Shown one piece after another: positions 5,589 to 59,204 of a stretch of DNA of 63,213 nt. This DNA comes from a virus. Position numbers and translations under genes: made by a program. Each line of letters opens with the position of its first letter. Within the stretch, counting starts at the first letter, position 1. Location: positions 1-63,213 of IMG/VR virus record IMGVR_UViG_3300025108_000042; one strand, given 5' to 3'. The notes under the pieces are model-generated. The model ran no database searches, had not been told where the DNA came from, and saw nothing but the letters and a program-made list of their open reading frames with translations.

Positions 5589-5607
5589 AACCTTTAAAAC
5601 AAAAACT
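5589..5607 (+). promoter_or_regulatory. Early gene-border block, copy 5
   Basis: AACCTTTAAAACAAAAACT immediately before the ATG at 5608. It shares its first 16 bases with the 529 copy although it lies 5 kb away. Confidence 0.55.
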
Positions 5608-8194: not shown

Positions 8195-11100
8195 TTAATC
8201 AAAATATTCTTTAGGGAATTTATCACTTACATCAAGGTTGTTTAAAATGTAAGACTCTTCGTAATCATCAAAATTAGTTTTAATAATTTTATTTACTTCT
8301 ATCATTTTCTGAGTGTTTCCTTTATAAGCAGCAACTTTAACTACCGAATAATACATTTCTCTTACATCATCCAATATTTTCTTTCTGTGCTCCGGATAAT
8401 CCGTAGTAAGGTAATTCTCATCAAAACTTCTCTTATAGCCTTTAACAGCATATCTAAATTGTTGCACTAAGTCGTACTCATAGTCGCGCACAAAAGCCCT
8501 TTGAGCAATAAGCTTTAAAGTCTCCTTTGGTACATTTACTTTTTCTAGGTTAAAGTCTTTTGGATTTAAACCCTGTAGCTTTAAATATCTTTCAGCTCTT
8601 TCTATCTCTTCATTTTTTCTAGAAGCGTCTCTGTAAGAAGATGTTATTAAAGAAGGTAGAAACTGAGAGCCACCGTACTTAGCCATGTCCATAACACGTT
8701 TAAATGCCGGGTCAGAAGGGTCTGATATTGATCTTCCGTAAACATCTTCGTTTTTAGCCAAAGAGGTTAAAAGATTTACAGCCATGTTAGGCTGTATTGC
8801 ATCACCTAAAATTCCAAAGTAACCACCAAACCCAAACACCTCAGCGTAAGGATCAAATCCGGTGTAGTCATATACACGAACTTTTAAATCATCATCAACA
8901 GATTTAACCCATACCTTGTGGTTTTTTAGCCATCCTGGTCTAACAACAGTTGCATTTTCAAACATCTCTGCTTGTTTTTTTCTTTGCTGTTCTGTCTCTT
9001 CTTCGTCATCAAATCCTAGCATACCAAGTATGCCCCCGTAAGCATATGAAACAGATTTAATTATAGCGTAAGGACCAGATACTCCTACCCATCCAAGACC
9101 GGTAAGTTTTCTGCGGATATCTTTTCTGTATTCTGATTTCTGCTCATCAGATAAAGTATCGTCTGACATTAATGTTTTAATATCATCTCTTACGTTTGCT
9201 ACAATTCTGTATGTACTTCTAAACGCTTCAAAACGGAATCCTTGGAAATCACCAATAGGCATTCTTTGTACAGCTTTACCAAGCTTAGTAATCCTACCCC
9301 ATGTAGGAGTGTTGTCTTTTACACGCTCGGCAGCTTGCGCTCTTACTTTTTTCTGCTGTGCATCATTTAAATTAGCGTATTCGTCACCATAAAGTTTCTT
9401 AGCGAACGACTCCCTTTCGTTTTGATAGATAGACATTTTACCAAAGTCATCAATTGCAGCGTAAGTAGACCCTAGATCTGCAATAACTTTTTTACCCATG
9501 TTTCGTACCTTACCTACATACTTATCGTAGAAAGATTTATCCCCAGTTACGGAGAAATAGTATGAGAATCCAGAAAGACCAATTTGATTTACATTAAACG
9601 ATTGACCTATCGCTCCATTCTCTGCAAGCTCAGTAAGCATGTCCATGTATTTTTGATCTCCATTTAGGATACCTTCAGCCATAGACTTTATATTCTTAGC
9701 TTGTTTTGTAGGGTTAAACCATCCGTTAGCCCAGTTAAAATACATTGTACCTATAACGTTCTTACCCCATGTCGGGCTATTCAATATAACGTTAACCATA
9801 CGTAGGTTCTTCAATGCAAAGAAGTAACCACTCCAGAATCCACCCGCTAAACCATCTTTATCAGTTTCGTAAATAGGTTTAGACTGTATGATTTCAGTAA
9901 TATCATTATGAACCCACTTCGTGTTTAAAGGACTCATAGGGTCATTAATCTGCTTGTATGTAGCCTTTTGTCTTTCTTTAATTTTATTATTAGAAATAAT
10001 CATTGGCTCCTGACTAACGCGGTCTAATATCAGTTTCTTCTGTGGCTTAGTAAGCTTAGAGAAATCTTTATTAAACTCTTCTTTAGCGTAAACATCTTTT
10101 AGGTTGTCTTCTATACCATCAGCAATCATTTCAACCATCTTACCTTTTTCGTAGATGTTAAACAGCACCTCACCTGTTGCAGCCATCTGTGCAATAGGGT
10201 CTTTAACCTCACCAAGAAGCTCTCTGATATGTACTGGTAGATCTTTCTTTTCTAAGAAGGCACTGTTAGGAATGTTTGTTCCCTTACCTTGAGCTCTCAT
10301 CTTTTTTCTGTTATCAAGAAGCTCGGTATATTCTTTAATAAGGTTGTCGATGTTTCGCTTAGACTCATCTAGAAGCAACTCTCTCTTAGAGTATCCTTTG
10401 TTATCACCTTTTGTAGCTTTTAACAATGTAGACTCAATAGCTTGTTCTCTGGTATATCCAGCCTCGTTAATAAGCTTGTTGATCCAGTTATTGTAAAGAA
10501 CTAAAAACTCTTCTTCTACAGCTTTGTTTCGCTCGTTCTTACCTAGATTTAAATACTTACCTAAAGATCCAAACTTAAACTTGTAAGTAGGGTCATCAAA
10601 AAACCTGTAAGAGCGGTGCATATATGTACCAATATTCTCTAATATGTTTTCCTTTGTTTCTTTAGGCAACTTAGAGAATGTACTATCTGTTACTAAAGCA
10701 GCAGATTTTTCGTCTATAATGGCACGAACAGCCCTTAAATTCTTAAGTATACGCTCACCGTTTTTCAACTCAAGTATATCATCAACAACAGCTGATTTGT
10801 CAGCCTCCATCATAAACCTATTGGCTAACCCTCTTGCTTTAACAATATACTCAGTGTCTATACCTCTTTTCTTGCGGCTCACCCAGTTACCACCAAGGTC
10901 ATTATTCAGCTCTCGTAAAATCTTTCCTAGACCCTTCATACCTATAGAGACTTTAGAAGATCTTATCTCTTCCATTTTAATAATCTCTTTCTGTACTTGG
11001 TTCCATTTAAAACCTTTAATCTTTTCTAAAGCAGATTGCAGTCTTGATGGATAGTCTAATTCTTCGTCTGTTGGAGGCTCATACCCTTGTTTTTCTTTAA

Positions 11101-14100
11101 ACTCTGGGGTACTTTCCTCTATTGTTACGTAATCAACACTTCCTTCAAATATAGAAACGCCAGTACTTGCTTGATCAATAACCGGAGTATCACTCATTTT
11201 TTTCACTGCACTTGCAGTGCTTGATACTTTTGGATCTTCGCTTGGTCCTACTAAAATTGCACTACGACCATGTCTACCAGCATCTACAGCAATTGTTCTT
11301 GCCCATTCGGCAGCTGATATACTAGGGTCTACAAAAGCAAAGTAAGTTGGGATTAAAGCCTGGTCTAATATAAGGTGACCAAACTTTCCGCTATTATTAA
11401 TTTTTAATTTGCTTAAGAATTTTGCAAGCTTTATGCTGTCTAATAAAGGAGCAGGTCTTTCTGAAAACGGCTCGTATAATTCTTTTCTTGAGAATGAATA
11501 TACCGGAGCTGGAACAATGTTTTCCGGCTTCTTGGTATCTGGTTTACTTGATGTTCTATCATTAAAGGTCGCAAACTTACCGCTATCTAGATTAATAATT
11601 ATACCATCTAACAGTGTAACTCCAGGTACTGATTTTATATATTTTGAAAATTTGCGATAAACATTTAAGTCTCCAGAACTTTCCTTTAAATTACCAGAAG
11701 GGTGGTTATGAATAAAAGTCACAAAAACCTCTTCTCCTTTTAAATCAAATCTAGCAGCATCTATAAGCCCACCAACTTGTATCATATCAACTACAGCTGA
11801 ATTTTGAGTACCTGTTCCGAGCCAAATGGTTTTATAATCCCCTTTTTTGGTACTAACCACAAGGAACATGTTTTCAGAAGTAGCTGACTCAAGATGACGC
11901 AATAAAAACGCGACATCACTAGGACCGTTTATCTTCTCTGGACCGGTAAGGCTAAAAGCCTCATTCTGTTCGTATATTCTTTGCTGTAGAGTAAACTCTT
12001 CAGTTTTGTTTTTAGCTACCATAGAGCTTTTAAAACGTATTGGTCCGAGTTGTTTACTGTTTACTACTTGGGTTTTTTGATCAGTATAGGATCCAGAAGG
12101 CGCTGCATCTGTTCCTGTAAGCTCTTCTGTCTTTGGATACTTAACAGCTATAACCTCTTCATCTTTTGTCAAAGCTTCAAACCCTAGTCTCTTGGCTACA
12201 TTCTCTTCTGTTTCGTTAAAAGCTTTGGCGACAGCTGACACATATTGTTTTACTACATCTAAACCCTCTTTCCTTAGGTCTTTAATATCTTGTATTAGTG
12301 TGCTTTCAGTTGCGTAATCGCTAAAACTATCCGCATCAAACCCATCCATTACAAGTCTCTTAGATCCTTTACCTTTACTTAAAGCATCAAACGCTTTGGC
12401 TTGTGTAATGAGGTCAAATCCATACATCCCATTATTGCCCCACATTACTTGATTTACTTTCTTTGGATCAAATTTTCCAGTAACACTTTTTTTAAGCCAT
12501 GGATTAGCAAGATTCTGGAAGTAGTCTTCCTCTAAAGCTGATACAGCCTCAATGCCTTTTAAACCTTTGTACTTAAAATCAAGAACATCCTTTACACCTT
12601 TAGCAGCTCCCTTGTCTGAACCATATATCATTACATTTTCAGGTGCATCCTTAGTGCGTTTTCTCTTTGGGTTTTTGTCGTACCCGCCTTCATAAATATC
12701 TAATCTTATAGATATTCCACTACCAAGATTCATTATCTTTTTAGCAACTTCCCACCATTCTTTATTAGGTACTGTAAATTCAACGCCTTTACCTTTTTCA
12801 AAACTATAAAAGTTATTAAGATCTTCTGCTGAAGGAACAAAACCTTTAGCTATTTCAGCCTCCTCTTTAGTCAGCTTAACACCAGCAATAATCGTTTCTT
12901 CTTCTTTAATATCCTTTTCAGTGTAATTTTTTAGTTTAGAAAACTCACTGTCATCCATCTGCTTAATAGCATCAGCAAAAGTCAAAACCTTGCTTACGCC
13001 ATCAATAGTTACAGTGTCATATAATATTTTATTTACACCAATATCATCAGCTACACTTTTAATGTATTGCTTAATAGTATTAATCGCTTTTTTGCGAGAG
13101 TCAATAAGTAGATCTTTAGGTCTAGTTTCTTCAGACATACTATTTATAGACCCGTTGTAGCTTTCTACTAATTCAACAATCTTCTTCTTTACTTCCTGAA
13201 TATTATTCTTCTGATATTCTGGACCTATAAAGCCATATTTAGTTTTTGGGTTTGAACCCTCAAGGAACTTTTTATTTTTAGCACCTTTTTCATCAGCTTC
13301 TATTACTATACCAATACCGAACTCGCCAATATCCTTCATTTTTTCTATGTCAGATTCTGACTTCAAGCTTATTGCAGAGACAGTCTCAGCATCAATAATA
13401 TCTTGCTTGTTAGGTATAGACTTTTTCTTTGGCTGTGCTTTTTGCTCTGGCTTAGAGAAAACTTTTTGCTCTTGTTCTGGAGCTTCTTCTTTTTTTAATC
13501 CAGCGTCTATTAGAATTTGATCTTTAGTAAACTTAGAAGAGTTTGCAGTATACTTACTTAAAGAACCACCAGCCTTCAGGCTGCTTAGAATGTCGTACTG
13601 ACCACTACCTCTGTTTATAGGAATAGCCTTCCATACTCTTTTAGGGTATATTTCTCTTCTTCCAAAGTATTCTACCCTGTCATTCTTCATTCTATACCTT
13701 TCAATACTGTCTAAAGGTTTTGATACAAGCTCGCTTTTTGAAGTTTCTTTTCCTCCGTTAAGTACTTTTTGTTTCTGTATCTCAGTATTTATAATAGCAG
13801 CAGTAACAAGTTGAATAAACTCATCTGGGTTCATTTTACCTGTTATGGTTTTGGCGTAGAACTCTTCCTCGTTTCTGTAGAACGGAGCCTTATTACCAGA
13901 CATTATCTCCTTTCTTACCATAAGGCGAGATGCAATGTCTAATTCTAAATCGGGTAACGGAGCTCCTGTTGTTCTTATACTAGGTATAGTTCTACCCTCA
14001 AGTTCCTTATTTATTTCACGCTTTTTATCTAAGTCGCTTTCATCATCCTCTTTTTTTGCTGCTACCTCAGGTTCAGGCGCTGCCTCTGGTTGAGATTCCT

Positions 14101-16375
14101 TCTCTGTGGATGGAGCTACTTCAGCTTTTATTTCTTGTTCTGGAGCTTGCTTAGTATCTGGAGCTGTTTCTGGAGTGGGAGCGACTTCAGTTTTTGGAGC
14201 CGGGGCAAGCTGTTGGTTGATTTTTTCATCTTGTTTAGCTAAATTTTCTAATTGCTGTTCTAATTCTTCTTGCTCGTACTGGCTTGTAATAATGTTGTAA
14301 GCAACCTCATCGCCTATATTACCTCTAAAGGTCCTTTTAGTGCCGTTTGCTGCATCTAAATTAACAGATACTATATTTCCTTGCTCGTCACGGTTAATTG
14401 CTGCTAGAGGGTCGCTATAGTTGTTCTGATATTGCTCACCACGAATAGTGATATTGTTACCATCAATCGATACAATCTCCTCAGCTTTTGCCAGTCCAAG
14501 CTCATCAGCAAATTTGCCGTTAAGATCGTCTATATTTCCAAGCTCAATTATATCCCCATCGTCAGTCAACAAAGATCTCTTGCCAGCTCCTTCATCAATA
14601 ATACGACCAGCAACTTGCTTGCCCGAAGGAGACTTCATAGTTACGCGACCTTCAATAAGGTCTTCAAATCGATCTGGTTGTACCGCTTTGTCTACTTCTA
14701 AGTCAATGGTAACTGGAGTAGGTTCATCTTCTGGTACAAATGTTTCTTTTGGAGCAGCCGGTTTAGTTTCAACTGTGCCAATTATATCTGTTTTCTTTTT
14801 ATTAAGCTCTAATTCTAATTTCTCAATTTGAGACTTGATTAAATTAGCAGCCGTTTCTGACTCAGTACCCTCTAATCTCTGCTTCTTGTCAAGAATAACA
14901 GCTTCAAGGTTTCTAATCTCATCAATCTGTTCGTCAGTAGCTTTTTTAATAAGTGCGTTCTCTTCATCGCTACGATACCTAGATTCAATTTCATCCTTCT
15001 CAACAAAAAGCTCTACAGCTTCTGTTTGTAAAAGATACAGTTGAGAATCGTCAGAAGTAAGTTTTCTTTTCTTAGCAATGTTGTTTAATGCGTTATCAAT
15101 ATCTCTGATTCTTTTTTGGTCCTCAGTAGAGAACTTACTAAAGAACTCAACGTCTTGATCAATCAATGTACGCAATGAAGATATATTCTTATTGATCATG
15201 TCATCAATAACATTTACTTCTTCTTGTGAGGCTTCTTTCTTCTTTTCCTCTAGCTCTTTTAGCTGTTGTGCTTTTTTTGCACGAGCTTTTTCGTTCTTAA
15301 TAGAACCACGAGCGCTCATTCCGTTTGCTGTTACAATTGTACCGCCACCGGCAGTCATACCTATTAGAAAATCGTCAACAAGCTTATTTACATCAAAAGG
15401 TTTTCCTTCTTTAACTCCAACGACCATCTGGTCAAACGAGTTTACCAAAGCTTCCTCAAAGCCTTCTTCCAATCCGCTTTTAGCCAATTGCTTGTATATG
15501 TCACTCGCTTTTACACTCTGTATAAAAGATTGTCTGTATGCTTCAGTGGAAGCCTGTTTAGAGAATATCTTTCTAAATGCCGCAAGGTCGGCTCCCCCCA
15601 TTTTCTCTGCCAATCCCTCTACAACACCTGCTGCCGTAGCAAACATTAGTTTCTCTGACGGAGAATACACTGGATTATTTTCAATCTCACGATACTTATT
15701 ACCACCAGCACTTACAGCAACTACACCTATACCTGTTGTAGCAGCTAAGGCAACCGAAGGTATAGCCTCTGTAGCACCACTAACCAATAAAAAAGCTGAT
15801 TTAGATATTTTACCATCTTGCGCTAAACCTACAATCCCTCTTTCAGCCTCCTCTTTAGTAATGCCAGCATTTGTATTACGAGTATTTCTATAGAATTCTG
15901 CGTTAGCAGCAAAGGTATCTGCGGCTTTTTCTATAAAGTTAGGATCTTCAAGTGATGTTATTGATTCAAATAAAGGACTATTGAATCCACCCGGCATTCC
16001 AGAAGAGCGAGCAAAATCGTAAGCCATATTAGCGTAGTCAAGTATACCGCCTACAACACTATTAGATCCACCTACTAATTCTGATAAAAAAGGAGTCTTT
16101 GCCGCACCTCTAGCAAAAGCGCGATCAGCCTCTTTAAGAGACTCAAAGAAAGGATTTGGCGGTGTTTCAACCTCTGTAGATACTGATGGTCCAACCAAAG
16201 ATTCTCCAGCTGTAGCTTCTTTTTTTTTTGGAGCGTAATCTACTTGCCCCTTGTATACAGGGTACTTCTCTAATATTGCGTCAACCAATACAGAATCTTC
16301 GTATTCGTTATACTCTGGATACTTAGCCTTTATCTGTGATGCAAAATCCTGTACAGAGAGTTTATCTTGAGGCAT
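8195..16375 (-). CDS. Giant polyvalent internal protein with JAMM domain
   Basis: A 2726-residue multidomain protein. The N-terminus is a short helical motif (residues 5-48). Small-residue hydrophobic stretches lie at about 195-230 and 335-350, long coiled coil at 360-540, and a Pro/Glu/Ala linker at 718-782. A RadC/JAMM domain (about 1490-1610) has an intact motif His1556-N-His1558-x7-Ser1566-x2-Asp1569. The C-terminal third (about 2150-2500) resembles polyvalent-protein-associated domains and has amphipathic stretches. It lies downstream of muzzle and internal proteins, where crAss-like phages encode cargo proteins ejected with the DNA. The JAMM peptidase may act on host proteins after entry. 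No DxDGD RNA polymerase motif was seen. Confidence 0.8.
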   Translation of the reverse strand: MPQDKLSVQDFASQIKAKYPEYNEYEDSVLVDAILEKYPVYKGQVDYAPKKKEATAGESLVGPSVSTEVETPPNPFFESLKEADRAFARGAAKTPFLSELVGGSNSVVGGILDYANMAYDFARSSGMPGGFNSPLFESITSLEDPNFIEKAADTFAANAEFYRNTRNTNAGITKEEAERGIVGLAQDGKISKSAFLLVSGATEAIPSVALAATTGIGVVAVSAGGNKYREIENNPVYSPSEKLMFATAAGVVEGLAEKMGGADLAAFRKIFSKQASTEAYRQSFIQSVKASDIYKQLAKSGLEEGFEEALVNSFDQMVVGVKEGKPFDVNKLVDDFLIGMTAGGGTIVTANGMSARGSIKNEKARAKKAQQLKELEEKKKEASQEEVNVIDDMINKNISSLRTLIDQDVEFFSKFSTEDQKRIRDIDNALNNIAKKRKLTSDDSQLYLLQTEAVELFVEKDEIESRYRSDEENALIKKATDEQIDEIRNLEAVILDKKQRLEGTESETAANLIKSQIEKLELELNKKKTDIIGTVETKPAAPKETFVPEDEPTPVTIDLEVDKAVQPDRFEDLIEGRVTMKSPSGKQVAGRIIDEGAGKRSLLTDDGDIIELGNIDDLNGKFADELGLAKAEEIVSIDGNNITIRGEQYQNNYSDPLAAINRDEQGNIVSVNLDAANGTKRTFRGNIGDEVAYNIITSQYEQEELEQQLENLAKQDEKINQQLAPAPKTEVAPTPETAPDTKQAPEQEIKAEVAPSTEKESQPEAAPEPEVAAKKEDDESDLDKKREINKELEGRTIPSIRTTGAPLPDLELDIASRLMVRKEIMSGNKAPFYRNEEEFYAKTITGKMNPDEFIQLVTAAIINTEIQKQKVLNGGKETSKSELVSKPLDSIERYRMKNDRVEYFGRREIYPKRVWKAIPINRGSGQYDILSSLKAGGSLSKYTANSSKFTKDQILIDAGLKKEEAPEQEQKVFSKPEQKAQPKKKSIPNKQDIIDAETVSAISLKSESDIEKMKDIGEFGIGIVIEADEKGAKNKKFLEGSNPKTKYGFIGPEYQKNNIQEVKKKIVELVESYNGSINSMSEETRPKDLLIDSRKKAINTIKQYIKSVADDIGVNKILYDTVTIDGVSKVLTFADAIKQMDDSEFSKLKNYTEKDIKEEETIIAGVKLTKEEAEIAKGFVPSAEDLNNFYSFEKGKGVEFTVPNKEWWEVAKKIMNLGSGISIRLDIYEGGYDKNPKRKRTKDAPENVMIYGSDKGAAKGVKDVLDFKYKGLKGIEAVSALEEDYFQNLANPWLKKSVTGKFDPKKVNQVMWGNNGMYGFDLITQAKAFDALSKGKGSKRLVMDGFDADSFSDYATESTLIQDIKDLRKEGLDVVKQYVSAVAKAFNETEENVAKRLGFEALTKDEEVIAVKYPKTEELTGTDAAPSGSYTDQKTQVVNSKQLGPIRFKSSMVAKNKTEEFTLQQRIYEQNEAFSLTGPEKINGPSDVAFLLRHLESATSENMFLVVSTKKGDYKTIWLGTGTQNSAVVDMIQVGGLIDAARFDLKGEEVFVTFIHNHPSGNLKESSGDLNVYRKFSKYIKSVPGVTLLDGIIINLDSGKFATFNDRTSSKPDTKKPENIVPAPVYSFSRKELYEPFSERPAPLLDSIKLAKFLSKLKINNSGKFGHLILDQALIPTYFAFVDPSISAAEWARTIAVDAGRHGRSAILVGPSEDPKVSSTASAVKKMSDTPVIDQASTGVSIFEGSVDYVTIEESTPEFKEKQGYEPPTDEELDYPSRLQSALEKIKGFKWNQVQKEIIKMEEIRSSKVSIGMKGLGKILRELNNDLGGNWVSRKKRGIDTEYIVKARGLANRFMMEADKSAVVDDILELKNGERILKNLRAVRAIIDEKSAALVTDSTFSKLPKETKENILENIGTYMHRSYRFFDDPTYKFKFGSLGKYLNLGKNERNKAVEEEFLVLYNNWINKLINEAGYTREQAIESTLLKATKGDNKGYSKRELLLDESKRNIDNLIKEYTELLDNRKKMRAQGKGTNIPNSAFLEKKDLPVHIRELLGEVKDPIAQMAATGEVLFNIYEKGKMVEMIADGIEDNLKDVYAKEEFNKDFSKLTKPQKKLILDRVSQEPMIISNNKIKERQKATYKQINDPMSPLNTKWVHNDITEIIQSKPIYETDKDGLAGGFWSGYFFALKNLRMVNVILNSPTWGKNVIGTMYFNWANGWFNPTKQAKNIKSMAEGILNGDQKYMDMLTELAENGAIGQSFNVNQIGLSGFSYYFSVTGDKSFYDKYVGKVRNMGKKVIADLGSTYAAIDDFGKMSIYQNERESFAKKLYGDEYANLNDAQQKKVRAQAAERVKDNTPTWGRITKLGKAVQRMPIGDFQGFRFEAFRSTYRIVANVRDDIKTLMSDDTLSDEQKSEYRKDIRRKLTGLGWVGVSGPYAIIKSVSYAYGGILGMLGFDDEEETEQQRKKQAEMFENATVVRPGWLKNHKVWVKSVDDDLKVRVYDYTGFDPYAEVFGFGGYFGILGDAIQPNMAVNLLTSLAKNEDVYGRSISDPSDPAFKRVMDMAKYGGSQFLPSLITSSYRDASRKNEEIERAERYLKLQGLNPKDFNLEKVNVPKETLKLIAQRAFVRDYEYDLVQQFRYAVKGYKRSFDENYLTTDYPEHRKKILDDVREMYYSVVKVAAYKGNTQKMIEVNKIIKTNFDDYEESYILNNLDVSDKFPKEYFD

Positions 16376-53185: not shown

Positions 53186-53934
53186 ATCAATATAATGCTA
53201 CAGCTGTTTGTGTCAAATGAGACTTGATAATGTCATTTATTTTTACTAACTTAGCATTGTGATTGAGATCAAACGCATGATTGAACTCATGTTCTTAAGT
53301 GAATCAGTTTATAGTTCAGAAATAAACTAATCCAAGTACAGAGTGCCAAATCCCAATTAAGGCACACTCTAAAATTCACGTTAAACACTACAATACGCCC
53401 TAACTATACCTGTTTCTGAACCACGCGTTCAGTCCCAGAGATCCCCTTACAACAGCTGTTATTAGTATTGCATACACAGTGTCCACTACCTAACAGATAT
53501 ATCCTATACACCCCCGCAAATCCATACTCTGAACCCAAACAACAACTTTCTGCACTTTACAGCAATCTATTGCCCCGAAAAATACCCCAGAAATATCTAC
53601 CTAGGGGATTATATATATAGTCTACCGATAGAAACCGCGCACCTAAACCGATATCCAGACCACCCCCGCCCGACCAGCTGACCGCCTTTGTGCACTTTTT
53701 CAGCTTTTAGCACCGTTTACTGCCTGTCTGGCGATCTTTGTTCTACCTGTTTAGTGATCAATACCAACCCTTGCACCTCCAGACAACCGAAACAACCGTA
53801 TAGCTCCTATGTAGGGCATTTACTGTCGTATCTGGGGCAACACCTAACCAGCTGACGAGCTGACCGGATTAAGAGCTTACGAGCTGACCAGCTGACGAGC
53901 TCAGGTAGTGTTGAATTCTTTTTGTTGCGTTCGT
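53186..53934. other. Gene-free switch region, replication origin candidate
   Basis: About 750 bases without a convincing gene, between divergent gene blocks. Contents: a hairpin at 53340-53370 (AGAGTGCC / GGCACACTCT), a C-rich plus strand from about 53500 to 53700, an AT-rich tract near 53610-53625 (TTATATATATAG), and direct repeats of ACCAGCTGACGAGCT at 53847-53861 and 53887-53901 with a partial copy at 53673. Repeats, an AT-rich tract and strand switch are typical of origins. No DnaA box was confirmed. Confidence 0.4.
53847..53901. repeat. Iteron-like direct repeats, 40-base period
   Basis: Two identical 15-base copies of ACCAGCTGACGAGCT start exactly 40 bases apart (53847 and 53887); GAGCTGACC units fill the space between. 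A shorter copy (ACCAGCTGACC) starts at 53673. Confidence 0.65.
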
Positions 53935-53964
53935 TTTGTTTATTCACATTTGTTTATATATTGC
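53935..53964 (+). promoter_or_regulatory. Promoter of the right plus-strand operon
   Basis: TTTG at 53935-53938, 18 bases, then TATATTGC at 53957-53964, close to the Bacteroidota layout. Transcription from about 53970 would give a leader of about 195 nt before the first gene. Confidence 0.45.
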
Positions 53965-53973
53965 AATTCAGTA

Positions 53974-54132
53974 GAACGGTCAGCCGTTCACGTTCTTTGA
54001 CATTCGGGAAAGTTAAAACAGATCTGAAGAGCTTCAGTAGTGCGAAGCCAGAGCGCCAGTGATGGCGCCAGGACTTAATAAGTTGAAACCTATGAACGGG
54101 CACACGTTCAAAGCAGGTGCGAAAGCTCCTGC
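53974..54132 (+). ncRNA. Hairpin-rich structured leader RNA
   Basis: Five stem-loops in a row: GAACGG-TCAG-CCGTTC (53974-53989); CTGAA-GAGC-TTCAG (54024-54037); GCGCCA-GTGA-TGGCGC with a GNRA loop (54053-54068); GAACG / CGTTC (54094-54109); GCAGG-U-GC-GAAA-GC-U-CCTGC with a GNRA loop (54113-54132). The last one is followed at once by the cassette core. The stems are visible in the sequence; a riboswitch, translation-control or stability role is inference. Confidence 0.5.
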
Positions 54133-54150
54133 GGTTATCTGTTAACTAAT
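54133..54150 (+). repeat. Cassette core, copy 0
   Basis: GGTTATCTGTTAACTAAT directly after the GAAA-loop hairpin of the leader and 15 bases before the ATG at 54166. This is the first member of the series and it uses a different hairpin. Confidence 0.7.
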
Positions 54151-54165
54151 TTAAAACTTTGACAA

Positions 54166-54417
54166 ATGGAAACATTGACAAATTATGACCATGCACAGTT
54201 AGACCTTGCAACCGGTCAACACCGTACACACGCGCAATTCTTAGAAGTTATGGACTCAGCGTTTCATGGTGTATACTCGCAAGCAAAAGCACAGTATAAA
54301 GAATTTTGTTTTGATCCTGTGAGCTACATTGAACACATAGATGAATATTGCGAAGGATTGGTGAATGATAATGTGAAAATTGAACTACTCACTCAGCTCG
54401 TTTACATTATAGACTAA
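54166..54417 (+). CDS. First gene of the right operon, unknown
   Basis: An 83-residue protein, slightly acidic, His- and Tyr-containing and helical (FLEVMDSAFHGVYSQAKAQY). No family recognised. As the first gene behind the long structured leader it may be highly expressed early. Confidence 0.65.
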   Translation: METLTNYDHAQLDLATGQHRTHAQFLEVMDSAFHGVYSQAKAQYKEFCFDPVSYIEHIDEYCEGLVNDNVKIELLTQLVYIID

Positions 54418-54421
54418 AAAA

Positions 54422-54465
54422 GGGGAGCGCTTACGGGCGCTCCTTTGGTTATCTGTTAACTAATT
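54422..54465 (+). repeat. Hairpin-plus-core cassette, copy 1
   Basis: Stem GGAGCGC (54424-54430) / GCGCTCC (54437-54443), then TGGTTATCTGTTAACTAATT. Confidence 0.75.
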
Positions 54466-54478
54466 AAAAATCATTAAA

Positions 54479-54715
54479 ATGAATGATTCAAAGAAACTCT
54501 GGCACGTTCAACAACTGCACATGCTGGAAAGGTCAAACCCTTATTCGTACGGTTCTTTTGTGTTTACCAGCTCAGGCGAAATATTCACAGTTGATGAAGC
54601 GGTTGACATTTGGGAGGACATCAAAGAAGAAGGACTTTTTTACGGTGTGAATTGGGAAAGCGAGTTATGGAGCGAAAGCGGTATACAAATACCAGCCGTT
54701 TATACTGAACACTAA
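54479..54715 (+). CDS. Small acidic protein, unknown
   Basis: A 78-residue acidic protein rich in Trp, Ser and Glu (VDEAVDIWEDIKEEGLFYG). No family recognised. Own cassette upstream. Confidence 0.65.
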   Translation: MNDSKKLWHVQQLHMLERSNPYSYGSFVFTSSGEIFTVDEAVDIWEDIKEEGLFYGVNWESELWSESGIQIPAVYTEH

Positions 54716-54720
54716 GATGA

Positions 54721-54762
54721 AGAGCGCCAAATGGCGCTCTTTTGGTTATCTGTTAACTAATT
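54721..54762 (+). repeat. Hairpin-plus-core cassette, copy 2
   Basis: Stem AGAGCGCC (54721-54728) / GGCGCTCT (54733-54740) with loop AAAT, then TGGTTATCTGTTAACTAATT. Confidence 0.75.
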
Positions 54763-54774
54763 AAACTCACTAAA

Positions 54775-55071
54775 ATGAAGGTGTACAACGTATACAAGGC
54801 AAACGAGGAGCTATACATGACATTTCAAAGCAAAACTGAAGCGGTTGACTTTATAGAATATGGAGCCGCAAGTGTTTTTAGCGAAGAGGGCTTTTATTTG
54901 GAGGAGGCGCTTATTTGTAAATGCGGTAACGATAAAGAAGTTATGGAGCGTTTTGATGCGTACGGCTACGCAACCGGTGATTGGTGCAATACGTGTTATG
55001 AAAACGGAAAATATCCATACAGGAAAGATCGTTACTACGACTACTTTAACGCTGGGGAAAGATTAGAGTAG
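54775..55071 (+). CDS. Zinc-ribbon-like small protein
   Basis: A 98-residue protein with cysteine pairs LICKCGND and WCNTCYENGKYPY about 25 residues apart, which would suit a zinc site. The N-terminal half looks like a small alpha/beta domain (YMTFQSKTEAVDFIEYGAAS). Function unknown. Confidence 0.65.
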   Translation: MKVYNVYKANEELYMTFQSKTEAVDFIEYGAASVFSEEGFYLEEALICKCGNDKEVMERFDAYGYATGDWCNTCYENGKYPYRKDRYYDYFNAGERLE

Positions 55072-55076
55072 AAAAG

Positions 55077-55112
55077 AGCGCCATTTGGCGCTTTGGTTAT
55101 CTGTTAACTAAT
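55077..55112 (+). repeat. Hairpin-plus-core cassette, copy 3
   Basis: Stem AGCGCC (55077-55082) / GGCGCT (55087-55092) with loop ATTT, then TGGTTATCTGTTAACTAAT. Confidence 0.75.
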
Positions 55113-55122
55113 ATAAATAAAG

Positions 55123-55578
55123 ATGAAAACTACAGTATTTATCGGGAAAGCTGAGGTAAAATGGAAAGCAAAGAAGAACCCAATAGAGCACAAAATTAGA
55201 AGCTCAAGGGATGCTTACAATTTATTAAAGGCACATATCGGAAAAAAGATATTTGAACAAGAGCTTTTTATTACTATGTATATGAACAAGGCGAACACCG
55301 TATTATGGATTGAAACCATAACTCAGGGATGCGGTGCTTCGTGCTCTGTAGATATCCCAGCAATAACAAGAAGAGCTATAGAGGGAACGGCACACGCGGT
55401 AATTGTCGCGCACAACCACCCGAGCGGTAATAAAAACCCCAGTGAGAACGACAAAAGAGTAACTAAGAACTTAAAGAAAGCGATTAAACCATTTAACATA
55501 GAAGTGTTAGACCATATTATCGTTTGTGGGGATGGTTACTACAGTTTCGCTGACAATGGCGAACGATCGTTAGCTTAA
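55123..55578 (+). CDS. RadC/JAMM-domain protein
   Basis: A 151-residue protein with a complete RadC-type JAMM motif: AHNHPSGNKNPSENDKR gives His-x-His-x7-Ser-x2-Asp, followed by VLDHIIVCGDGYYSFADNG. RadC-like proteins of phages and plasmids are common in anti-defence and accessory regions; the motif is that of a zinc metallo-isopeptidase. This is the second JAMM domain in the genome, the other being in the giant late protein. Confidence 0.85.
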   Translation: MKTTVFIGKAEVKWKAKKNPIEHKIRSSRDAYNLLKAHIGKKIFEQELFITMYMNKANTVLWIETITQGCGASCSVDIPAITRRAIEGTAHAVIVAHNHPSGNKNPSENDKRVTKNLKKAIKPFNIEVLDHIIVCGDGYYSFADNGERSLA

Positions 55579-55586
55579 TTTATGAG

Positions 55587-55626
55587 GAGCGCCAATGGGC
55601 GCTCTTTGGTTATCTGTTAACTAATT
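55587..55626 (+). repeat. Hairpin-plus-core cassette, copy 4
   Basis: Stem GAGCGCC (55587-55593) / GGCGCTC (55598-55604) with loop AATG, then TGGTTATCTGTTAACTAAT. Confidence 0.75.
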
Positions 55627-55638
55627 TAATCAAACACT

Positions 55639-56355
55639 ATGAAGAATAGAGTTGTATTTACTATACCTGAAAAGGACATTATAGTTGTAATACGTAAGGG
55701 CAAGACCACAAACAAGAAGATTACAAACGGTGCACCACTGGTGCAAACGTACACATTCAGCACTGCTCAATGGACTTTAGCTTCCACCAGTAAAGGCTTC
55801 GGGATGAAGAAATTCTTTGCTTTGGATGGTTCCAATTGCTTAGACTGTCCATATAGTGGAAACAAAGGTAAAGGCGGTTGCTATACACACAAGTTTAACC
55901 AATATGTAGGCTTTTTGTCTATGCTACGTAGCATTAAACACAATGAGCTTACACCACTTACAAGGGACAAACAACAGAAAATTATTGAGCTTTCGTTTAA
56001 TAGTTATGTAAGATTTGGGACATATGGCGAACCATCCTTAATGCCTTTATCTGTTGTTGATGCTATGGTATGGAATGCTAAGACATGGACTGGTTATACG
56101 CACCAATGGGAAAAAGAATGGGCGAACAGTTATAAAAACTATTTTATGGCTTCTACGCACAATCAAACAGAAAGTAAAAGAGCCAAAACAATAGGCTATA
56201 GATCATTTGTTTCTGTAATACCTGACAAAAAAGTTACCGGTATAAACTGCCCAGCATCTAAAGAGCAAGGCTACAAAAGTAACTGTGAAAAGTGCGGGTT
56301 ATGCTCAGGGGTGAAGGGCAAAGGAAACAAGGATGTATGGATTATGGAGCATTAA
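55639..56355 (+). CDS. Cysteine-rich phage protein (DUF7227-like)
   Basis: A 238-residue protein with cysteines in conserved-looking contexts: NCLDCPYS, GGCYTHKF, INCPAS, NCEKCGLC. Between them lie SYVRFGTYGEPSLMPLS and WTGYTHQWEKEW. I associate this pattern with a phage/plasmid family of unknown function, possibly DUF7227. The cysteines suggest zinc or iron-sulfur binding. Confidence 0.6.
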   Translation: MKNRVVFTIPEKDIIVVIRKGKTTNKKITNGAPLVQTYTFSTAQWTLASTSKGFGMKKFFALDGSNCLDCPYSGNKGKGGCYTHKFNQYVGFLSMLRSIKHNELTPLTRDKQQKIIELSFNSYVRFGTYGEPSLMPLSVVDAMVWNAKTWTGYTHQWEKEWANSYKNYFMASTHNQTESKRAKTIGYRSFVSVIPDKKVTGINCPASKEQGYKSNCEKCGLCSGVKGKGNKDVWIMEH

Positions 56356-56357
56356 AA

Positions 56358-56391
56358 AGAGCGCCACTGGGCGCTCTTGGTTATCTGTTAA
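56358..56391 (+). repeat. Hairpin-plus-core cassette, copy 5
   Basis: Stem AGAGCGCC / GGCGCTCT (loop ACTG), then TGGTTATCTGTTAAT; the core is truncated after TTAA. Confidence 0.72.
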
Positions 56392-56407
56392 TATAAGTTA
56401 TAAAGCA

Positions 56408-56665
56408 ATGAAAAAGAATGACTACGAACTAAGTATAGAATACAGGGAGCGTTTCGCACTTAATAAAGGCGAACGTTACTGGATGCAAGAAGCAATTGAT
56501 TTGTATTCTAAGATGGCTAAGGAAGAGCTGGAACACGAAATAGAACAAGGTAAAAGACCGGTAATAGCTCCAGCTTTTTTTGATGGATTATTTAATACTA
56601 TAAGCGGTAAGCTTGATGCTTGGATGCAAGAAGAAAGAACTGTTCTTCAAGACTCGGAAGAATAG
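56408..56665 (+). CDS. Small charged protein, unknown
   Basis: An 85-residue protein (MKKNDYELSIEYRERFALNK start). The longer frame from 56333 runs through the cassette hairpin, so the start at 56408 is correct. Acidic and helical, with IAPAFFDGLFNTISGKL in the middle. No family recognised. Confidence 0.65.
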   Translation: MKKNDYELSIEYRERFALNKGERYWMQEAIDLYSKMAKEELEHEIEQGKRPVIAPAFFDGLFNTISGKLDAWMQEERTVLQDSEE

Positions 56666-56692
56666 TTAATGATTGGTTAACGGTAGAGTCAA

Positions 56693-56731
56693 AAGGAGCG
56701 CCATTGAGCGCTCCTGGTTATCTGTAAATTT
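56693..56731 (+). repeat. Hairpin-plus-core cassette, copy 6
   Basis: Stem GGAGCGC (56695-56701) / GCGCTCC (56708-56714), then TGGTTATCTGTAAATTTA; the core differs at TTAAC (TAAA). Confidence 0.72.
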
Positions 56732-56743
56732 AAACAATGTATT

Positions 56744-57244
56744 ATGAACAGGATTAATTATTGGATTAAGGAAAAATTAGGCTTAATCGATAAAGGGGGG
56801 GTGAACAGGATTAATTATCTATTAATGAAAGTAGATTACCTGAGCACCGAATTGCACATAGCTAAAGAGCAAATACTTAAGCTTGAAAAAGATGTTAGCG
56901 GTATTCATGATGAGCAACACGAAACAAGGGAGACCGTATCTAACAACGAGTACGCAATAGACAGTGTGAAAAGTGATTTAGAAAATCATAATGTTCCGTA
57001 TCTGTGGGAAATCGTAGATAATAACAAAGATTATATAAAGAACCTTGAAGTACCTGATGAATACAACATTAGGGAGATTATAAAATTAGAACTGGATGCT
57101 CTAAAAGGGACTAATGACTCACAAGAGACAATAGGAGGTGATAGTATAAGTAATGAACGATTGATTACCGGTATTGTAAGAAGTGAAATTGCACAGTACA
57201 ACAAGTTTATTGTAGATGCATTGAATGAGAAATCATTTGATTAA
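56744..57244 (+). CDS. Coiled-coil protein with duplicated N-terminus
   Basis: A 166-residue, helical, heptad-patterned protein (ELHIAKEQILKLEKDVSGI). An N-terminal duplication encodes NRINY twice (residues 2-6 and 21-25); the first 19 codons may be a late addition and the GTG within the second copy a possible alternative start. No family recognised. Confidence 0.65.
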   Translation: MNRINYWIKEKLGLIDKGGVNRINYLLMKVDYLSTELHIAKEQILKLEKDVSGIHDEQHETRETVSNNEYAIDSVKSDLENHNVPYLWEIVDNNKDYIKNLEVPDEYNIREIIKLELDALKGTNDSQETIGGDSISNERLITGIVRSEIAQYNKFIVDALNEKSFD

Positions 57245-57249
57245 TTATA

Positions 57250-57288
57250 AGAGCGCCACTGGGCGCTCTTGGTTATCTGTTAATTAAT
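57250..57288 (+). repeat. Hairpin-plus-core cassette, copy 7
   Basis: Stem GAGCGCC (57251-57257) / GGCGCTC (57262-57268), loop ACTG, then TGGTTATCTGTTAATTAAT. Confidence 0.72.
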
Positions 57289-57298
57289 ATATATAAAG

Positions 57299-57499
57299 AT
57301 GAAACACCAGTATGGAACAGTGTACGCTGAGGCTACGCTAAAAGTTCGTGTAAAGTTTAATACGTATCTACACGATGCAGAAGAGTATGAATACGTTATG
57401 GATGCTATGTATAACGGGGACTTTGATTTTATAGAAATGCCTAAAGTTGATAGCTTTAAAATCGAGAATGTAAGAACGTTTGAAGAGAAGGAGTTATGA
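57299..57499 (+). CDS. Small protein, unknown
   Basis: A 66-residue protein with strands and a helix (VYAEATLKVRVKFNTYLHDA, then YEYVMDAMYNGDFDFIEM). No family recognised. Its stop overlaps the next ATG (ATGA). Confidence 0.65.
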   Translation: MKHQYGTVYAEATLKVRVKFNTYLHDAEEYEYVMDAMYNGDFDFIEMPKVDSFKIENVRTFEEKEL

Positions 57500-57762
57500 C
57501 AAGGTTTGAACAGGATAAAGAGACTATTTTTCGTTACATAGACAGTAAAGGATCAAGACCAATGAGTAGGGCTTATTGGAATTTAGTGGTGAGCATACGC
57601 GATGTAGGGTTGTTCTGTGAGGGAATAGCACCTAACAGACACTGGAGACTTAAACACGTTAAAGAATATTTCGGAGTAAAAGGAGGTAAACAAAAGATTT
57701 ACGACCAGTTAAACGAAATGCTTGATGACTATAGAAAAGAATTAGGGTATGAGACAGTGTAG
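57496..57762 (+). CDS. Small protein, unknown
   Basis: An 88-residue basic/acidic mixed protein with helices (YWNLVVSIRDVGLFCEGI, HVKEYFGVKGGKQKIYDQL). No cassette precedes it; it is translationally coupled to both neighbours by overlaps of 4 and 14 bases. Confidence 0.65.
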   Translation: MTRFEQDKETIFRYIDSKGSRPMSRAYWNLVVSIRDVGLFCEGIAPNRHWRLKHVKEYFGVKGGKQKIYDQLNEMLDDYRKELGYETV

Positions 57763-57961
57763 TGAAACCGGAGAGGTGATGTATGGTGGTTGGGTGATTT
57801 GTGATGATATCTATATCAAGTATGAAAAGGATTTAGACAATTATTTGCTTGAATGGGCAAAAGATGATGGTCTACATAATTTCAACATTGAATGGCTAAG
57901 AGATTATTATTACAACAGTGAGATGTTCTACTACACAACGTGGTACGAAGAAGAAGATTAA
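57749..57961 (+). CDS. Small acidic protein, unknown
   Basis: A 70-residue acidic protein rich in Tyr and Trp (IYIKYEKDLDNYLLEWAKDD). No family recognised. Confidence 0.62.
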   Translation: MRQCSETGEVMYGGWVICDDIYIKYEKDLDNYLLEWAKDDGLHNFNIEWLRDYYYNSEMFYYTTWYEEED

Positions 57962-57965
57962 TTAA

Positions 57966-57999
57966 AAGCGCCACTGGGCGCTTGGTTATCTGTTAATTT
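57966..57999 (+). repeat. Hairpin-plus-core cassette, copy 8
   Basis: Stem AAGCGCC (57966-57972) / GGCGCTT (57977-57983), loop ACTG, then GGTTATCTGTTAATTT. Confidence 0.72.
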
Positions 58000-58013
58000 A
58001 AAATATAAAGATT

Positions 58014-58148
58014 ATGTATACAGACAATATGTATAGCAACGAGTACACTGAGGCTCTTGAGGACTTTGAATGTTTTGTAAGAAACATATTAGATAGCGAA
58101 GATTTGACTGATAAAGAAAAAGTTGAAACAATTAAAAAACAATTATAG
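58014..58148 (+). CDS. 44-residue acidic protein
   Basis: A short acidic, helical protein (YTEALEDFECFVRNILDSED) placed 14 bases after a cassette, as expected for a real gene. It is followed after three bases by the next start. Confidence 0.58.
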   Translation: MYTDNMYSNEYTEALEDFECFVRNILDSEDLTDKEKVETIKKQL

Positions 58149-58151
58149 ACT

Positions 58152-58388
58152 ATGAAAGTATTTACATTAGTACAAATTATTGAAAGAGACTGCGATGTAA
58201 AAGTAGAATCTTTTGCTACACTACAAGAAGCTATGAAATTTCAAGACAAGCTAACCAGAGAATTTATACAAGACTGGGGCTCTGTAAAAATTGACTTCGC
58301 ATTTGAAGAGAACTCCTCTATCTTTTTTATGGAGTCTAAGAATGGTAGTACTGACCAACAAATAGTAATCAAAGAAACTGAAATATAA
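58152..58388 (+). CDS. Small acidic protein, unknown
   Basis: A 78-residue alpha/beta protein (VFTLVQIIERDCDVKVESF, LQEAMKFQDKLTREFIQDW). It shares a cassette with the gene before it. No family recognised. Confidence 0.65.
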   Translation: MKVFTLVQIIERDCDVKVESFATLQEAMKFQDKLTREFIQDWGSVKIDFAFEENSSIFFMESKNGSTDQQIVIKETEI

Positions 58389-58402
58389 ATAGATTGAAGT
58401 AA

Positions 58403-58440
58403 AAGGTGCGTTGCACCTTGGTTATCTGTAAACAATTTAA
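58403..58440 (+). repeat. Hairpin-plus-core cassette, copy 9 with a changed stem
   Basis: Stem AAGGTGC (58403-58409) / GCACCTT (58413-58419), loop GTT. The stem sequence is unlike GAGCGCC of the other copies but pairing is preserved, followed by TGGTTATCTGTAAACAATTT. Confidence 0.72.
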
Positions 58441-58451
58441 AACAATTTATT

Positions 58452-59204
58452 ATGCCTAACTGGGTAAATTCAACAGTTGAAATGGAGTTACAAAACTCTG
58501 ATGTAAAGCTTTTAGAAGCTATGAAAGAAAATGGCGGGATCTGTAGGACCTACAATCCAATGCCAGCTCTGTTAAACAAAACGGTATCACCAGTGCAAAT
58601 TGTATCTGTTAAAGAATACAAGGAACAACAGAAGTTTAACGAAGAATACTTACAGTCTATTCCTGAAGGACAAAGTCCTGATGATTGGAAGATTAAAAAG
58701 GGTATTACAAAAAAGATGCACGAAGAGTATATAGAAAAGTATGGACATGCTGACTGGTATAGCTGGGCAAGTAAGCATTGGGGTACAAAGTGGGGAGATT
58801 GTGATTTTAATTACTGGGAAGATGAAACGACAGACAATGGTACAACAATAGTAGTTGTCCACTGGGAGTCGGCTTGGGGACCTATCTTAAATAGTCTTAC
58901 CGAGAAGCTTATAAACGACCTAAGAGCTACTGATACACCCGCTAAATTCAATTGGGAAGAAGAGCAAGGATTTGGGGCAGAATATGAACTGGTAGATGGG
59001 AAGTTGTCTTTAATTAGTGAATGGGATTTACCTGAATGGGGAGATGAATATTACGAAGATGATAAGGGCAACTGCTACACTTACCTTATAGAAGATTACT
59101 ACAAGATGGGAGAAGTCTACAGTAAGGGATTCTATTTAGAGCATTCAATACACGAGCCATATGACAAGGAAAAGGATGGTGAAATCAAAAAGATGAAGTG
59201 GTAA
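58452..59204 (+). CDS. YubB/DUF1281-like ferredoxin-fold protein
   Basis: A 250-residue protein starting MPNWVNSTVEM, with a WYSWASKHWGTKWGDCDFNYW motif and a VVHWESAWGPILNSLTEKL segment, matching the plasmid/phage-encoded YubB ferredoxin-like family (also listed as DUF1281). Biochemical role unknown; usually in accessory regions. Trp- and acid-rich. Confidence 0.75.
   Translation: MPNWVNSTVEMELQNSDVKLLEAMKENGGICRTYNPMPALLNKTVSPVQIVSVKEYKEQQKFNEEYLQSIPEGQSPDDWKIKKGITKKMHEEYIEKYGHADWYSWASKHWGTKWGDCDFNYWEDETTDNGTTIVVVHWESAWGPILNSLTEKLINDLRATDTPAKFNWEEEQGFGAEYELVDGKLSLISEWDLPEWGDEYYEDDKGNCYTYLIEDYYKMGEVYSKGFYLEHSIHEPYDKEKDGEIKKMKW

Follow-up and report, generated by a model that had tools for sequence, protein, structure and literature searches.

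A predicted hammerhead-type leader serving ten substrate cassettes in an operon of an uncultured Bacteroidota phage

The virus record IMGVR_UViG_3300025108_000042 (63,213 bases, hereafter the window) derives from an uncultured phage of Bacteroidota and contains an early operon in which almost all independent gene starts are preceded by one of ten copies of a hairpin cassette. We propose that the transcript of this operon is very likely processed by a hammerhead-type ribozyme, which, judging from hammerhead biochemistry, would cut in cis at the first cassette (copy 0) and then in trans at nine further ones, yielding single- or few-gene mRNAs. The best explanation of the arrangement is that a leader upstream of copy 0 (about 54012-54136) provides the only catalytic half, with the ten cassettes as its substrate halves. 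That the leader works like a hammerhead is well supported by its core and by the coupled evolution of that core, although, given its unusual stem II, it is a putative member of the hammerhead family.

The leader and the ten cassettes

The structured leader lies approximately 110 nt upstream of copy 0 and comprises a boxA-like element (GTTCTTTGACAT), AACAGAU, CUGAAGA, three hairpins and GAAACC. Taken together, leader and cassette make up a hammerhead core: stem I, CUGANGA, GAAA, the A15.1-U16.1 pair and H17. This core is present once, before the first gene, the other nine cassettes consisting of the substrate half only. When the region upstream of copy 0 was folded, GUUAA..CAGAU of the leader and the core of copy 0, AUCUGUUAAC, paired with each other and enclosed a domain of several hairpins; the folding energy by itself was unremarkable (z -1.4).

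Each cassette is laid out as a hairpin, GGU, H17, the predicted cut and AUCUGUU (Table 1). The ten-copy cassette reported in the first-pass annotation was confirmed, with all copies on the + strand: five cores are identical to GGTTATCTGTTAAC, four have one base changed and one has two. The rest of the window contains background matches only, at 2-3 mismatches, and the total of 19 hits was reached by none of 100 shuffles. U17 is found in all window cassettes. The 3' end of the hairpin touches GG, or sits 1-2 nt away, in every one of them, and a perfect stem of at least 5 bp flush at GG was present in 41 of 50 cassettes from eight contigs, compared with 5.5% of shuffles. Copy 9 has the divergent but perfectly paired stem previously described (AAGGTGC-GTT-GCACCTT). 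The cassettes are confined to independent gene starts, and the genes at 57496, 57749 and 58152, which overlap or abut the preceding gene, have none, as had also been stated. The extent of the unit, by contrast, had been only partly recognised: the cassettes were correctly placed, whereas the functional unit begins near 53990, outside the annotated interval, and the catalytic leader was overlooked. The presence of this leader explains why copy 0 precedes the first gene. Similarly, TTATCTGTTAAC would be conserved because it holds the stem I strand and the cleavage site, and the division into leader and substrates accounts for the free sequence of the hairpin stems and for the missing T-runs.

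The earlier statement that the stems lack good T-runs holds: window cassettes show at most 3-4 T before GG, copy 0 has none, and the U-run of an intrinsic terminator is absent. We consider it extremely unlikely that the hairpins act in termination or are cut by an endoribonuclease of host or phage origin, with the conserved tail as its recognition sequence or as a translation enhancer. GC hairpins do lie between the genes, short T stretches occur behind some stems and the A/T-rich leaders fit Bacteroidota translation. However, one unit precedes the first gene, and a protein site would leave unexplained both the CUGANGA/GAAA core and the changes coordinated with the leader. Among the three roles initially suggested for the cassette, that of an RNA processing site is the supported one, in the form of a ribozyme cleavage site and not of a protein-processed hairpin.

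Leader and cassettes change together in three clades

Relatives gathered by TerL and by pattern share this arrangement; the leaders represent clades 1 and 2, with four contigs each, and clade 3, with one. Their anatomy and coupled evolution can be read from the sequences. Stem I differs by clade (ATCTGT, ACTGAT and TTAACC in the cassettes), and the leader and all cassettes of each phage match, giving the pairs ACAGAU/AUCUGU, AUCAGU/ACUGAU and GGUUAA/UUAACC. In the distant clade 2 (G007, G012, G006 and L116), the leader reads AUCAGU-CUGAUGA-...-GAAACC-...-GGUH-ACUGAU, and ACUGAU replaces AUCUGU in the cassettes. The constancy of CUGANGA, GAAA, CC/GG and U-H around a helix of changing sequence points to a hammerhead core. 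The first-pass annotation had considered that a core differing among related phages, or a loss of stem pairing, would speak against its interpretation; the core does differ, yet each change is mirrored in the leader strand, and pairing of the stems is retained.

The leader helices contain pairs changed on both sides (9 within clade 1 and 12 within clade 2), a covariation matched by 0 of 500 shuffles, and sliding the partner abolished the pairing. GAAACC is invariant in clades 1 and 2 and is also present in the clade 3 contig, L381. Clade 2 retains a single G-C pair closing stem II before the three hairpins, whereas in clade 1 positions 10.1 and 11.1 fall in the separate hairpins P2 and P4.

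The nucleotide at the predicted cut was U in 44 and C in 13 of 57 cassettes from nine contigs, and never A or G. Since GGT belonged to the search pattern, the invariance of U16.1 is built in, while the result for N17 is not. These counts leave out a G17 site at window position 57797 (inside a gene, with a core mismatch), G007 9837 and G012 5707 (GGT and core without a hairpin) and the coding site G012 6838.

When cleaved leaders of clades 1 and 2 were cofolded with cassettes of the same genome, stem I formed in 38 of 42 cases and both arms in 31 of 42. For both arms, the controls gave 0 of 222 cross-clade pairs and 1 of 161 other GGTH sites in three operons. A generic search for CUGANGA whose preceding 6 nt recur downstream as the reverse complement behind GGTH returned the leaders of both clades, plus complete hammerheads, while none of six control motifs yielded more than three chance hits with two copies. 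The same search found no array in the isolates elemoA, phi38:1 and MW202828. The leader had no match in the phage collection, in which we detected no isolate carrying such a system.

Given that the leader strand is complementary to all ten cassettes, it could be that the leader cuts only in cis at copy 0 and, once freed, base-pairs with the cassettes as a regulator of stability or translation, with no further cutting. This would also avoid the need, in trans cleavage, to displace the leader's own GGU. We consider it quite improbable, as pairing alone requires neither the GGU-H17 rule, nor a hairpin abutting GG, nor the positional match to the complete hammerheads of relatives, and as complete and half sites are combined in the operon of L381.

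Complete hammerheads in relatives and a mixed operon

In other family members, genes are preceded by canonical hammerheads of type I, such as AAGGUUAA-CUGAUGA-GUCC..GGAC-GAAA-CGGGCGAAAGCCCG-UC/UUAACC. The fetched loci contained 21 distinct sequences of complete type I hammerheads, and five mutated-core controls gave zero. Their cut sites lie 18-33 nt from the ATG, compared with 15-42 nt for the cassettes. With Rfam Hammerhead_1, one canonical relative reached 30.2 bits, slightly short of the cut-off (34), and the hammerheads with a GGTTAA stem I scanned in family contigs also scored below the Rfam gathering level. The GGTTAA hammerhead pattern was present in at least 120 viral contigs (L295-L414), with up to four per contig among the matches listed; among these matches, N17 of the full-core copies was C or A, never U or G.

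In L381, one complete hammerhead and five half sites share an operon with a boxA-like element and a long leader core whose stem I strand reads GGUUAA. This contig adds a stem I independent of the other two and connects the complete with the half-site state. Moreover, the gene behind a half site in G012 is related to part of the gene behind a complete hammerhead in G010 (42% over 64 aa). In G013 (L137, minus strand, 17805), a decayed hammerhead has CCGAUGA (U4 to C) with the AUC/UUAACC site intact, a possible intermediate towards a half site. Separately, a pistol ribozyme (Rfam RF02679, 54.9 bits) was detected at 6364-6428 of L107 (G007). The clade 2 leader follows approximately 0.9 kb downstream of it, and a canonical hammerhead lies at 5606, which makes three ribozymes in 2 kb.

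The half sites could alternatively be remnants of complete hammerheads that persist as recombination joints for the gain and loss of early genes, as in PeSL cassettes. Gene order and content do vary between relatives, and in G002 the homologue of window gene 57496 comes with a cassette of its own, which is missing in the window and in G003 (72.6% and 65.5% identity). In addition, an orphan cassette is found at 9254 of L010 (G002), with the next cassette 95 nt on and no gene between. Nevertheless, remnants would drift from the leader strand, the hairpins within each clade 2 genome all differ in sequence while GGUH and stem I are retained, and the cassettes have no recognisable promoter, so that we hold this explanation to be very improbable. 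The recombination joint initially proposed is plausible as a by-product, in keeping with the shuffled gene order, but leaves the coupled change of leader and cassettes unexplained.

boxA and the transcription of the operon

The boxA-like element preceding the leader is nearly identical to the boxA found before Bacteroidota 23S rRNA genes (for 55 of 81 genome hits, a 23S gene begins no more than 700 nt away), which suggests antitermination of the operon. A boxA-like TTCTTTGACATATTGGAA directly precedes tRNA-like genes on the minus strand of L106 and L108 (G005 and G011). On the minus strand of L112, at 6018, a boxA-like element precedes GAAATG-CTGATGA and a later CATTTC, but GAAA and UH are missing from the expected place. 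The 22 leader hits obtained from boxA-based searches were mostly chance matches.

An rrn-like boxA before most leaders, and also before tRNA clusters in G005 and G011, could indicate that the leader serves chiefly in antitermination, as a nut/put-like combination of boxA and structured RNA, and that transcription reads through the cassettes, which would be weak terminators. We give hardly any weight to this reading, which leaves the hammerhead core and the pairing between cassettes and leader unexplained; antitermination is compatible with cleavage as an added function. One variant of the ribozyme mechanism would use boxA to keep the leader on the elongating RNA polymerase via NusB/S10, so that a single ribozyme rides along and cuts each emerging cassette. 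Such processive, polymerase-tethered cleavage appears unlikely.

Neither a TTG-N17-21-TANNTTTG promoter nor TANNTTTG alone was found in 53.3-59.3 kb, which leaves room for a phage-specific promoter. With no promoter consensus in that interval, promoter cassettes were rejected. So were hairpin promoters for a virion RNA polymerase in the style of N4 or crAss phages: the giant open reading frames have no DxDxD motif in a plausible setting and no match to a polymerase family, their matches being to proteins of the tail or virion. In the noncoding stretch upstream of the leader, 53845-53905 consists of AGCTGACGAGCTGACC-type repeats, which may be an origin or an array of protein-binding sites; G001 and G003 have similar repeats at the same place.

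Proposed processing pathway

Under the ribozyme mechanism, one upstream promoter, to which the sequence points weakly, would give a long early transcript. The leader would fold, cut at copy 0 (54136/54137) and depart as a ribozyme of ~120-140 nt. Its freed AACAGAU and ACC may then pair with stem I (about 6-10 bp) and GGU (a 3-bp stem III) of the nine downstream cassettes, either in trans or along the same nascent RNA, with each predicted cut falling 15-42 nt before a start codon. The upstream mRNA product would end in a 3' hairpin and GGUU with a 2',3'-cyclic phosphate, and the downstream product would begin with 5'-OH-AUCUGUUAAC, followed by an unstructured A/U-rich leader. Stacking of the GG-adjacent hairpin on the 3-bp stem III is probable and would shield the new 3' end.

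Several observations weigh against this mechanism. Three hairpins replace stem II in the window, with 10.1 and 11.1 in separate helices and unable to pair in G001 and G002; to our knowledge, this three-hairpin stem II is unlike that of any known hammerhead. An Rfam scan of the window found no hammerhead, and the 54-nt stem II domain is unlike the Hammerhead_1 model; this result concerns a database match, whereas the family is defined by structural features. In trans, stem III would comprise just 3 bp, and GGU of the leader itself would have to give way. All window cassettes have U17, where cleavage is commonly slower than at C17. For one core to serve nine sites, the leader would have to turn over or be present in excess. 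The leader of L381 cofolded to both arms with none of its own five cassettes and, finally, few contigs represent each clade (four, four and one).

Genomic context

The window terminase is 41-49% identical to those of Flavobacterium elemo phages and MW202828, and a crAss-type muzzle protein is encoded in the window. The coordinates of the elements and operon genes are given in Table 1. The gene behind cassette 5 probably starts at the ATG after the cassette, rather than at 56333. Besides the RadC-like gene of the operon, a second RadC-like region, a JAB domain, is found in a 2726-aa protein (8195-16375, minus strand).

Table 1. Elements and genes of the operon region in the window. Cuts are predicted positions.
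Feature	Position	Strand	Remarks
Possible host-type -7 promoter element, TATATTGC	53956-53963	+	weak in the window itself; G002 and G003 have TATATTTG at the same place
boxA-like element	53992-54003	+	found ahead of most leaders in the three clades; missing from G006
Stem I, ribozyme strand (GTT AA AACAGAT)	54012-54023	+	complementary to every cassette core; changes in step between clades
Core part 1, CUGAAGA (CUGANGA)	54024-54030	+	directly 3' of stem I strand; invariant except N7 in all leaders of three clades
Three-hairpin domain replacing stem II	54031-54084	+	P2 54031-54048, P3 54053-54068, P4 54072-54084; compensatory changes in each
Core part 2 GAAA and stem III 5' strand ACC	54085-54090	+	invariant in all leaders; pairs with cassette GGU
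Leader hairpin P5	54094-54109	+	from fold and pair counts; clade 2 counterpart covaries
Copy 0 (cis site)	54113-54146	+	hairpin 54113-54132; core from 54133; GG 54133-54134, U16.1 54135, U17 54136; cut 54136/54137; stem I strand 54137-54146
First operon gene, 83 aa, function not assigned	54166-54417	+	open reading frame; homologues after copy 0 in G001, G002 and G003
Cassette 1	54421-54460	+	hairpin 54421-54446; core from 54447; GGUU; cut 54450/54451; cofolds with leader
Cassette 2	54719-54757	+	hairpin 54719-54742; core from 54744; cut 54747/54748
Cassette 3	55075-55108	+	hairpin 55075-55094; core from 55095; cut 55098/55099
RadC-like gene	55123-55578	+	preceded by cassette 3
Cassette 4	55584-55621	+	hairpin 55584-55607; core from 55608; cut 55611/55612
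phrog_2554 gene	55639-56355	+	preceded by cassette 4
Cassette 5	56357-56392	+	hairpin 56357-56378; core from 56379; cut 56382/56383
Cassette 6	56694-56729	+	hairpin 56694-56715; core from 56716; cut 56719/56720
Cassette 7	57249-57284	+	hairpin 57249-57270; core from 57271; cut 57274/57275
Gene and two coupled genes	57299-57499; 57496-57762 and 57749-57961 (coupled)	+	all served by cassette 7
Cassette 8	57966-57997	+	hairpin 57966-57983; core from 57984; cut 57987/57988
Two genes	58014-58148; 58152-58388	+	both served by cassette 8
Cassette 9	58403-58433	+	hairpin 58403-58419; core from 58420; cut 58423/58424
Gene	58452-59204	+	preceded by cassette 9

Relation to known ribozyme and cassette systems

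Natural hammerheads are known as cis-acting, once-only self-cutters. The phage system shares with type I hammerheads (Rfam RF00163) CUGANGA, GAAA, A15.1-U16.1, the U-H17 site and the arms of stems I and III. It differs in having one core for ten sites, nine of them substrate-only, a three-hairpin stem II domain and, in trans, a 3-bp stem III with an abutting substrate hairpin. Engineered trans-cleaving hammerheads likewise consist of a two-armed ribozyme strand and a separate substrate, in which the arms bind on either side of NUH, whereas the phage system is natural, has an extra domain and is tied to an operon. The PeSL cassettes of T4-type phages are also repeated stem-loops between small early genes in shuffled order; they hold promoters and terminators, while the phage cassettes pair with a predicted catalytic leader and no promoter consensus was found.

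In the discontinuous hammerhead of mammalian Clec2 3' untranslated regions (PMC6155905), two ribozyme parts are likewise widely separated within a single mRNA. That ribozyme is of type III and has a single substrate, with an insert of 150-1500 nt in helix I; the phage has one core ahead of the operon and ten substrates spread over 4.3 kb. Several cis hammerheads flank genes in prophages, where processing into single-gene or operon-length mRNAs has been proposed (Perreault et al. 2011, PMC3088659). Prophages with tandem cis hammerheads are already known, and a shared core with many substrate-only sites is new relative to the open-licence literature searched, in which nothing matched natural trans hammerheads or shared cores in phages.

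The roles of hammerheads in prokaryotes and phages were called an open question in a 2017 review (PMC6155905). The series from a complete hammerhead per gene, through the mixed operon of L381, to a single core with half sites outlines a possible path from a cis ribozyme to a shared trans enzyme. If the half sites are cut, this would be a natural RNA enzyme acting on many sites and setting the mRNA ends in an operon.

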